Of a stretch of 64,000 bases of DNA, positions 7,624 to 41,616 are shown in pieces. Source of the DNA: Cohnella cholangitidis (GTDB lineage: Bacteria; Bacillota; Bacilli; Paenibacillales; Paenibacillaceae). The first letter of the stretch is position 1, and every line of letters begins with the position of its first letter. The notes under the pieces are model-generated. The model did not search any database and had not been told where the DNA came from. It saw nothing but the letters and a program-made list of their open reading frames with translations. The stretch covers positions 5,877,501 through 5,941,500 of the forward strand of contig NZ_CP041969.1 of NCBI RefSeq assembly GCF_014107495.1. The letters are read 5' to 3'. A program made the position numbers and the translations under genes.

Positions 7624-7697
7624 GAAAGTTGTGAGTGTTTTTAATGACGTCGTCCTCGGGACGGCGAAGCTGGTTGAAATGTTGAGGAGTGGGAAAT

Positions 7698-39314: not shown

Positions 39315-40451
39315 ATGAGCGGAGAGTTTAGCGACTTTAAACCATTCAACGAATCAAATCCGATTAAAATCGCCATATTCGGAGTCGGCCTTATCGGAGG
39401 CTCCTTGGCGTTATGTTTCAAAGGCAAACCCGGCGTCGAGGTGGTAGGACATTCCGTCAACCAGTCGTCAACGGAGAAGTACGTAGCCCGCGGGGTCGTG
39501 GACTGGGCAACGACTTCTATCGCGGAAGCGGCTAAGGACGCGGACTTCTTGTTCCTATGCGTGCCCGTAGGGCGCCTGGAGGAGTACGTAGACGAGCTTT
39601 CCCGATTGCCGCTCAAACCGGGATGCATTATTACGGACGTGGGCAGCACGAAAGCGTCCGTCGTCCATCATGCGGATAAGCTCGCGCTGCAAGGGGCCGT
39701 ATTTATCGGCGGTCATCCGATGGCGGGCTCGGAGCGTTCGGGGGTGGAGGCGGCAAGCCTTCATTTGCTGGAAAATGCTTTCTACGTGCTCACGCCTATG
39801 GAAAGGACGCCTGTAGAGTACGTAGAGAAGCTGGAGCGATTGCTGAAATGGACGCGGGCCCACGTCGTGAAGACGGATGCCGTTCAGCATGACGTCATCG
39901 TGGGAGCGATTAGCCACCTGCCCCACCTGATTGCCGTAGCCCTCGTCAACCAAATAGCCGGATACAACGAGCAGAACGAATTGTACCGCAGATTGGCGGC
40001 GGGCGGATTCCGGGATATTACCCGAATCGCTTCGAGCGATCCTCTCATTTGGCGGGACATTCTGCTCAGCAATAGAGAAGTCGTGCTAAAGCTCGTGAAA
40101 GATTGGCAAGCGGAGATGGACCGGTTCGCGAAATTGTTGGAGGATGAGGACGGCGAAGGGATCGAGGAGCAGTTCCGCCTTTCCGGCCGGTTCCGCAGCC
40201 AGCTACCCGAGCGTCGCAAAGGGATGATTACTTCCCTGTACGAATGTTACGTCGACGTTCCCGACCATCCGGGCATCATCGGCAAGATCGCTACCGAGCT
40301 AGGCCAAGCCCAAATCAACTTAAGCAACCTGCAGATCATCGAGAGCAGGGAGGACGTTCCGGGAATATTGAGATTGTCTTTCCAGCAGTCCGAAGATTTG
40401 GACAAAGCGACGGCTTTATTGAAATCATTGCAATATGCTGTTCATATGTGA
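39315..40451 (+). CDS. tyrA: Prephenate dehydrogenase with C-terminal ACT domain
   Basis: Oxidises prephenate to 4-hydroxyphenylpyruvate for tyrosine. 378 residues: NAD-binding IAIFGVGLIGGSLAL near residue 20, TDVGSTKASVV, GGHPMAGSERSG, then an ACT regulatory domain (about 305-378) with DVPDHPGIIGKIATELG. Starts four bases after hisC. The aroE/aroA gene that follows tyrA in Bacillus is not here; a candidate small RNA lies next. Confidence 0.95.
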   Translation: MSGEFSDFKPFNESNPIKIAIFGVGLIGGSLALCFKGKPGVEVVGHSVNQSSTEKYVARGVVDWATTSIAEAAKDADFLFLCVPVGRLEEYVDELSRLPLKPGCIITDVGSTKASVVHHADKLALQGAVFIGGHPMAGSERSGVEAASLHLLENAFYVLTPMERTPVEYVEKLERLLKWTRAHVVKTDAVQHDVIVGAISHLPHLIAVALVNQIAGYNEQNELYRRLAAGGFRDITRIASSDPLIWRDILLSNREVVLKLVKDWQAEMDRFAKLLEDEDGEGIEEQFRLSGRFRSQLPERRKGMITSLYECYVDVPDHPGIIGKIATELGQAQINLSNLQIIESREDVPGILRLSFQQSEDLDKATALLKSLQYAVHM

Positions 40452-40459
40452 GAAAGATG

Positions 40460-40490
40460 GGGAGGCGCGCCAATGGCGTGCCTCTCTCTT
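40460..40490 (+). terminator. Terminator after tyrA
   Basis: GGAGGCGCGCC-AAT-GGCGTGCCTC with a CTCTCTTG tail; one GU pair. Tail is pyrimidine-rich, not pure T. Confidence 0.65.
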
Positions 40491-40522
40491 GCATATTTAA
40501 TGCCTAGTGAGGATAAGGATGG

Positions 40523-40558
40523 TTGTAAACGCTTTAAAATAAAATGTAAACGCTTATT
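40523..40558 (+). promoter_or_regulatory. Two tandem CcpA (cre) sites
   Basis: TGTAAACGCTTTAA (from 40524) and TGTAAACGCTTATT (from 40545) each match the cre consensus TGWAARCGYTWNCW except for one position. They are 21 bases apart, two helical turns, and the second overlaps the -35 of the following promoter, which suggests repression by CcpA in rich sugar. Confidence 0.75.
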
Positions 40559-40585
40559 GACAAAATGAAAACGGATACATATAAT
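40557..40585 (+). promoter_or_regulatory. Strong sigma-A promoter of the small RNA
   Basis: TTGACA (40557-40562), 17-base spacer, TATAAT (40580-40585): both hexamers are perfect. Expected start about 40592. Confidence 0.9.
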
Positions 40586-40591
40586 AAAAGT

Positions 40592-40664
40592 ACAGTATGG
40601 TTTCTCTCCACTCCTATCCAATACTTGCACAATGTGCGACCACCCTTCGGGGTGGATTTTTTTT
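40592..40664 (+). ncRNA. Candidate small regulatory RNA (~73 nt) under CcpA control
   Basis: A perfect sigma-A promoter with two cre sites is followed, after about 73 bases and no usable ORF, by a perfect terminator (CCACCC-TTCG-GGGTGG, T8, 40640-40664). The RNA would have a C/U-rich single-stranded 5' part, CUCUCCACUCCU (40604-40615), complementary to ribosome-binding sites, a small GCAC-AAU-GUGC hairpin and the terminator. That is the usual layout of Bacillota regulatory RNAs of the RoxS/RsaE/RsaI kind, but I do not recognise it as any of them. Start point and expression are inferred. Confidence 0.7.
40640..40664 (+). terminator. Terminator of the small RNA
   Basis: CCACCC-TTCG-GGGTGG with a stable UUCG loop, then A and T8. 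Confidence 0.92.
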
Positions 40665-40666
40665 GT

Positions 40667-40753
40667 CTATGTGCCGATACGGACAAATATAACGATTAAA
40701 ATGACAATACCCAATAAAAATTGAATAATATTTGAGAAATTTTTAAGCTCCAA
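40667..40753 (-). CDS. Possible 28-residue membrane peptide, convergent with the small RNA
   Basis: From a TTG at 40753 (minus strand) the frame reads MELKNFSNIIQFLLG and ends in a very hydrophobic helix closing with RIGT; stop is three bases from the small-RNA terminator. A purine patch AGGAATGGG precedes the start. The same frame is open further up (to an ATG at 40876), but that part looks random. Very small hydrophobic proteins next to a convergent RNA can be type I toxins; nothing more supports this. The rest of 40754-41016 holds no gene I can support. Confidence 0.2.
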   Translation of the reverse strand: MELKNFSNIIQFLLGIVILIVIFVRIGT

Positions 40754-41016: not shown

Positions 41017-41616
41017 ATGATGACCGATTCCCAATTAATACGGGAAATCAAAGACGGAAACGTAGAATTGTATTCTACGCTTATGGGACGATATCAGAAG
41101 AAGATTCTGTCCTTCGTATACCATATGCTGAAAAGCGCCAAACTGGAAATATTGGCCGAGGATATGAGCTCCGAAACCTTTTATAAAGCTTACCGCAGTT
41201 TGCATTCCTTTAGGGAAGTAGACGCGTCCTTTTCTACTTGGTTATATACGATTGCACGTAATACGGTTCTCAGTGAATTGCGTAAACAGAAAGCGGCGCA
41301 TCTTTCACTCGACGACTCCACATACATACCAGCCGCCCCTCCAGAAGAGGCACCCGAGCAGCGTCTGCTGCGCAACGAGAAGGTTTCCATGGTGAGAGAC
41401 GCCATCAACAGCTTGCCCGAGAAACAGCGTTCCGCGCTTATTCTAAGGGAGTACGATGGAATGGACTACCAAGAGATCGCTAACATATTAGGACAGACGG
41501 TCAGTTCCGTCAAATCGTTGTTATTCCGGGCCAGGGCCAGTGTGAAAACACAATTGGAATCGTACTTTACCGAACCGGCCATGATGAAGGAGTACGAGGA
41601 GATGAAGCTGCGATGA
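41017..41616 (+). CDS. ECF-type RNA polymerase sigma factor
   Basis: 199 residues; ATG 41017 after GGGAGGG. Region 2 (about 20-90) with AEDMSSETFYKAYRSL and FSTWLYTIARN, then a linker and region 4 (about 130-185) with LPEKQRSALILREYDGMDYQEIA. It lacks regions 1.1 and 3, as ECF factors do. The stop overlaps the anti-sigma start by four bases, so it forms a coupled sigma/anti-sigma pair. Target genes and inducing stress unknown. Confidence 0.92.
   Translation: MMTDSQLIREIKDGNVELYSTLMGRYQKKILSFVYHMLKSAKLEILAEDMSSETFYKAYRSLHSFREVDASFSTWLYTIARNTVLSELRKQKAAHLSLDDSTYIPAAPPEEAPEQRLLRNEKVSMVRDAINSLPEKQRSALILREYDGMDYQEIANILGQTVSSVKSLLFRARASVKTQLESYFTEPAMMKEYEEMKLR

Follow-up and report, generated by a model that had tools for sequence, protein, structure and literature searches.

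What lies between tyrA and a sigma-70 family gene of Cohnella cholangitidis, and whether it is a gene in its own right, is the question raised by the locus considered here, which was analysed within a 64,000-nucleotide stretch of contig NZ_CP041969.1 (the window). The original prediction had placed a small regulatory RNA with a C/U-rich stretch at this position, and the two flanking genes are confirmed by Pfam. The features to which the following refers are:

39315–40451, + strand: tyrA (prephenate dehydrogenase, Pfam PF02153/PF20463), a frequent neighbour of the RNA
40523–40537, + strand: cre-like site 1, TTGTAAACGCTTTAA, one mismatch, found mainly in near relatives
40544–40558, + strand: cre-like site 2, ATGTAAACGCTTATT, one mismatch, widespread in the genus
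40557–40562, + strand: -35 hexamer TTGACA, sequence match
40565–40579, + strand: cre site 3, ATGAAAACGGATACA, no mismatches, the most conserved of the three
40580–40585, + strand: -10 hexamer TATAAT, sequence match
40592–40664, + strand: predicted small RNA of about 73 nt, from fold and covariance model, 5' end inferred from promoter spacing
40596–40619, + strand: near-invariant single-stranded C/U-rich core UAUGGUUUCUCUCCACUCCUAUCC, from conservation and fold
40627–40637, + strand: small hairpin GCAC-AAU-GUGC, from fold and covariation
40640–40664, + strand: intrinsic terminator, covarying stem plus T8, from sequence and covariation
41017–41616, + strand: sigma-70 family gene, downstream, from Pfam; not a neighbour in all lineages

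The promoter, announced as a perfect TTGACA-17-TATAAT, matches at 12 of 12 hexamer positions with a 17-bp spacer, and the terminator is likewise present as described, with CCACCC-TTCG-GGGTGG at 40640–40655 followed by T8 at 40657–40664. Folding predicts two hairpins and an unpaired core for the 73-nt RNA, at -18.7 kcal/mol (z -2.5), an energy matched by 1 of 200 shuffles; the C/U-rich stretch, CUCUCCACUCCU, is unpaired in this predicted fold and would thus lie in a single-stranded part, as had been supposed. The claimed absence of a reading frame is borne out, as none of 60 or more amino acids starts within the RNA on the + strand, while reading of the sequence finds an ATG at 40597 that opens a short frame not conserved across 50 aligned loci. 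No Rfam family passes its cut-off at the locus, and none of six sub-threshold matches in 40450–40750 is convincing: Arrc14, the best of them over the RNA, reaches 20.7 bits against a cut-off of 99, and PYLIS_2 (23.1 bits against 36, E 0.002) lies at 40454–40522, ahead of the RNA.

Two one-mismatch cre-like sites 21 bp apart had been reported, the second lying over the -35. Sites and spacing are confirmed, but the count is not, as a third site with a perfect consensus match fills most of the -35/-10 spacer, so that three cre-like sites follow each other at exact 21-bp intervals, about two helical turns; the overlap of the second with the -35 is real but extends over just two bases (40557–40558). 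Scored with the pattern WTGNAANCGNWNNCW, which is the consensus form of cre, matches at one mismatch are common in the window, with 32 counted where 29.3 would be expected, and the weight of the cre assignment is therefore carried by the clustering, the exact third site and conservation. The form TGTAAACGCTT occurs exactly twice in the window, both times at this locus; with one mismatch allowed, chance would give 0.9 matches, and two are reached in 18 of 100 shuffles.

Genome comparison strongly supports a discrete small RNA whose promoter, cre, loop and terminator are conserved, as originally proposed. All 60 genomes searched by BLASTN with a 166-base query, which represent 11 families of the order, contain a match, and in 48 of the 50 loci read from these genomes the 21-nt core GGTTTCTCTCCACTCCTATCC is exact, the two exceptions, L045 and L050, carrying one and four mismatches respectively. 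At the level of the class, the 21-base core pattern is exact in 132 of 398 genomes (reversed control 0), and allowing up to three mismatches in a 24-base core gives 161 (reversed control 1), in part of which the sequence was inspected; the match in G368, counted among these, lies in a coding sequence and was set aside. About 30 of the 59 sampled families of the class carry the core, named carriers being at least Cohnella, Paenibacillus, Saccharibacillus, Thermobacillus, Brevibacillus, Aneurinibacillus, Ammoniphilus, Fictibacillus, Halalkalibacter, Shouchella, Alkalihalobacterium, Pseudalkalibacillus, Caldalkalibacillus, Alteribacillus, Marinococcus, Geomicrobium, Thermoactinomyces and Melghirimyces. 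Promoter-like hexamers occur in 192 of 195 distinct loci, 155 in strict form (counted without a shuffled control), and a terminator in 192, against 14.5 in shuffles; these 195, to which 212 loci were reduced, include the 50 model-building loci as far as their flanks allowed. With promoter and terminator both kept in relatives, the small RNA reading stands.

The covariance model built from the 50 loci recovers the full RNA structure in 100 of 100 other loci picked by the core alone (E ≤ 8.7e-7), some of them from species also represented in the model. When run over 398 genomes of the phylum, it gave seven strong matches, all in Cohnella's own family; ten weak matches outside the class (23.5–29.7 bits) were taken as chance. 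Among 95 distinct sequences 97.1% of cells pair compared with 67.2% after shuffling, both-side changes occur at all 10 pairs compared with 7.8, and the covariation score of 0.654 compares with 0.153 for shuffled (0/500) and at most 0.092 for slid alignments. This holds for both hairpins, the terminator stem included, and although the result leans towards the model because the alignment was fitted to it, the margin is large. Conservation in 60 of 60 genomes together with covariation rules out a chance match, and on this comparative evidence the locus encodes a real, deeply conserved and undescribed small RNA without an Rfam family. No publication on this RNA was found in the literature searched, where a set from Paenibacillus riograndensis possibly includes it: RNA-seq of that species is described to have yielded 27 intergenic small RNAs, 3 of them named through Rfam (PMC5670726), and the RNA may be among these 27.

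The constancy of the core directs attention to its partners. Pairing with mRNAs is likely, yet target prediction, to which the original prediction had looked for support, gave no excess over controls in pattern and duplex screens covering parts of two genomes. Eight genomes contain 53 places complementary to a 12-mer of the core, with G-U allowed, a count that includes the RNA gene itself 8 times; the reversed control gives 40, and the 30 complement loci read disclose no orthologous target. Over 1454 start regions (1.6 Mb, one third of the Cohnella genome G010) the duplex screen likewise shows no excess, duplexes below -16 numbering 404 with the actual core, 446 with its reverse and 225–557 with six shuffles, and in 121 orthologue pairs the core pairs no better than controls do. 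A GH15 gene and glgC, which belong to one cluster of this genome (L315:3293–9007), are among the five strongest of the 1454 duplexes, ranking first and fifth respectively. Reading 30 orthologues did not bear out glgC as a target, pairing being moderately kept within Cohnella and weak in five loci outside, and the same goes for gnd, whose energies in 30 orthologues range from -8.6 to -23.2 with no pattern.

The original prediction had also named der, ahead of which AGGAGTGG is indeed present at 7685–7692, but the 8-mer is kept in just 7 of 30 orthologues read out of 40 found (L432–L461). The shorter 7-mer AGGAGTG serves as der ribosome site in 29 of these 30 despite diverging upstream sequence and stands ahead of only 26 of the 1454 genes in the G010 stretch, which makes der a fair first candidate; from these sequences we infer that der may be a target, the ribosome site of which would be blocked.

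A near-invariant core together with failed mRNA screens is also what would be seen if the core paired not with mRNAs, but with one invariant partner such as another small RNA, rRNA or a protein, for example an RNA chaperone. A single partner of this kind would explain why about 20 letters barely change across the class. Against it stands that RsaE/RoxS is described as acting through a C-rich or UCCC core that pairs with Shine-Dalgarno sequences (PMC9266662, PMC8464778), and we consider a sole invariant partner unlikely.

RsaE/RoxS resembles the RNA discussed here in just this respect, an unpaired C/U-rich core that, judged by its sequence, would be able to pair with Shine-Dalgarno sequences. 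Could the two share an ancestor, the RNA of Cohnella and its relatives having lost the 5' half? The RsaE stretch UUUCUCCCAUCC (UUUCUC-CCA-UCC) aligns with UUUCUCUCCACUCC of the core at 12 identities in 14 columns with two one-base gaps, and this stretch, at about nt 50–63 of the L462 RsaE (numbered by hand from where the model begins), overlaps C-rich region 3 (CRR3, nt 51–64), which is reported as decisive for target pairing of RoxS (PMC8464778). The similarity has a p of only about 0.045 against shuffles of the C/U-rich core and of 0.09–0.13 against the whole of RsaE. The RsaE model (RF01820) finds no match in 40450–40750 even at E 10, and none in 40 relatives at E 0.001, the B. subtilis control being positive. 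The 5' hairpin motif ACCCCUUUGUUUGA, present in 12 of 12 RsaE loci, and the central C-rich motif UUUCUCCCAUCCCC, exact in 11 of 12, are both found at none of 185 core loci within 200 nt. Membership in the RsaE family is consequently rejected, and divergent homology is judged quite improbable, while the likeness between the core and the C-rich segment of RoxS suggests, at the level of sequence, a shared seed logic.

Divergent homology could also draw on the distribution of the two RNAs. With E 0.001 as threshold, a search whose filters lose weak matches detects RsaE in 112 of the 398 class genomes, in 82 of which it exceeds the curated cut-off; in this filtered search no genome of the 398 holds both RNAs, with the coding match of G368 set aside. 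Counted by hand from the two tables, the RNA described here is present in 30 families, RsaE in 17, neither in 12 and both in none. P would be 1.9e-7 for independent families, but families are not independent; as the exclusivity follows phylogeny, it may reflect one or few events. Control may differ as well: RoxS is described as controlled by Rex and ResD/SrrAB, whereas cre boxes are found here. In B. subtilis CcpA acts on RoxS via the sponge RNA RosA (PMC8216469); on the C/U-rich RNA of Cohnella the action of CcpA would be direct and opposite in sign to the RosA-RoxS route.

The genomic neighbourhood bears on whether the RNA could act in cis, as a leader or attenuator of the downstream sigma gene or as a 3' element of tyrA, as its position between the two might invite one to think. 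Among the matches listed, tyrA lies within 4 kb of the RNA in 96 of 117 loci from named genomes, hisC in 86 and a sigma gene in 77, and 9 of the 117, several with short flanks, show none of six tested neighbours. Of the 96 loci with tyrA (again among the matches listed), 13 have it on the other strand, and there the RNA cannot be part of the tyrA message. The leader of a longer mRNA, named from the outset as what would speak against a small RNA, does not fit either, since the RNA is flanked by different genes in different lineages and possesses a promoter and a terminator of its own; a leader of the sigma mRNA is thus rejected, and we regard a cis-acting element of either kind as very unlikely. 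That a tiny peptide is encoded from the ATG which starts the core in the 50 aligned loci is hardly credible, as third codon positions of the core are invariant too, indels shift the frame past the core and the frame enters the terminator (as read from the 50-locus alignment), and variant loci without the ATG exist.

Promoter, spacer cre, terminator and the tyrA-aroA neighbourhood are widely kept, the aroA neighbour being called by a PGDKSISHR signature. While cre sites 1 and 2 are variable among relatives, the spacer cre is retained in most, and an exact forward cre is found upstream in 130 of the 195 distinct loci (shuffles 0.1), with 121 exact sites at the place that corresponds to the spacer cre (offset -30 or -31 relative to the core). 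A CcpA orthologue above the curated cut-off was found in 20 of 21 genomes, that of Cohnella cholangitidis included:

G000:C1:618978–619964: CcpA orthologue, 485.7 bits, cut-off 442.35

A cre over a promoter is the arrangement of repression. As the spacer cre overlaps the promoter, repression with sugar and release without it would be expected in most carriers, and CcpA probably represses the RNA gene directly in most of them. Catabolite control as first proposed is in this respect supported by the conserved promoter cre and the CcpA orthologue in the genome, but it is not universal among carriers of the RNA. Among 29 variant loci an exact upstream cre is present in 8 and a cre with at most one mismatch in 14, and 15 have no upstream cre even with one mismatch allowed. 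A tested neighbour of the region is kept in 19 of these 29, L392 keeping just a more distant one, and the variant loci L394–L404 lie downstream of tyrA or of a relative of the aroA-like neighbour. The retention of neighbours in variant loci points to one old locus with changed promoter control in most lineages.

Within L394–L404 (families f23, f38, f45, f46 and f53) an exact cre was seen in 2 of 11 loci, L398 and L399, in both of which it is upstream of the -35. L394–L397 and L402 share a stretch resembling ACCGGTCGTTCGGTA between their promoter hexamers, which would fit a takeover by a different regulator, and in L400–L402 a cre-like TTTGTAAGCGTTTTCTGAAA directly follows the T-run of the terminator. 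Within 110 nt 3' of the core an exact cre occurs in 9 of the 195 loci and one with at most one mismatch in 54, for which shuffled upstream stretches, with 0.1 and 7.35 respectively, serve as comparison. Second copies of the RNA were noticed in four genomes of family f37 and in two of f32 (G264, G300). The promoters differ between the copies (L383–L385 and L405–L407 in f37; L387/L408 and L388/L409 in f32), and a cre with at most one mismatch is present at 6 of 6 loci read in f37 and 0 of 4 in f32. A degenerate second copy is found in Paenibacillus luteus about 260 bases past the first (L094:2739–2813, 28.1 bits).

Other small RNAs connected with CcpA provide partial parallels. RsaI of Staphylococcus aureus is repressed by CcpA in glucose and pairs with the Shine-Dalgarno sequences of its targets (PMC9266662), two traits which the RNA of Cohnella would share. 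RsaI has G-rich regions in addition to a C-rich one and is described as conserved in Staphylococcus and not in Bacilli (PMC8216469); these regions and its range in Staphylococcus set it apart, and no Rfam family was matched at the Cohnella locus. RosA of Bacillus subtilis is a stand-alone small RNA repressed by CcpA via a site at the transcription start (PMC8216469), a likeness that extends to the CcpA repression proposed here; however, RosA is a G-rich sponge of RoxS, whereas the RNA reported here is C/U-rich and occurs in genomes in which RsaE was not found. Under glycolytic conditions SR1 of B. subtilis is repressed, in part through CcpA (PMC8464778), and comparable sugar repression may apply to the Cohnella RNA. 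SR1 encodes a conserved small protein, for which the 50 aligned loci offer no conserved frame, and it is mainly under CcpN control with a cre about 260 bp upstream, in contrast to the cre inside the promoter here.

The reading that we prefer, and hold to be probable, is that a stand-alone gene here encodes a small RNA acting in trans by base pairing, which is repressed by CcpA, silences mRNAs and stands in the place of RsaE/RoxS. An own promoter and terminator, a covarying structure and no conserved ORF, all of them found here, are features of trans-acting small RNAs. With a preferred sugar present, CcpA bound to the spacer cre would block RNA polymerase, and upon exhaustion of the sugar the RNA would be made. 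Translation of several metabolic mRNAs would then be lowered through pairing of the core with their G-rich ribosome-binding regions (AGGAG, GGAGAG). In this manner the RNA would fill the place of RsaE/RoxS, coupled to CcpA directly and not through a sponge RNA; taken by itself, a role in place of RsaE/RoxS is possible.

A more far-reaching scenario, which we offer tentatively and consider doubtful, is that the RNA served as a riboregulator of carbon control already in the ancestor of the Bacilli and was lost in lineages such as those of B. subtilis and Staphylococcus, where RsaE/RoxS with a seed of the same kind would be found instead. The wiring to CcpA would have moved from direct repression to sponge RNAs, and elsewhere the core would have been kept downstream of tyrA-aroA under other promoters.

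An RNA gene with a near-invariant core spans about 30 of 59 sampled families, soil and industrial bacteria included. If it is a counterpart of RsaE/RoxS, it would provide a natural test of how a regulatory role passes between small RNAs, and if the proposed mechanism is true, the sensing of sugar by CcpA would be linked directly to the control of translation in Paenibacillus, Brevibacillus, Cohnella and their relatives.
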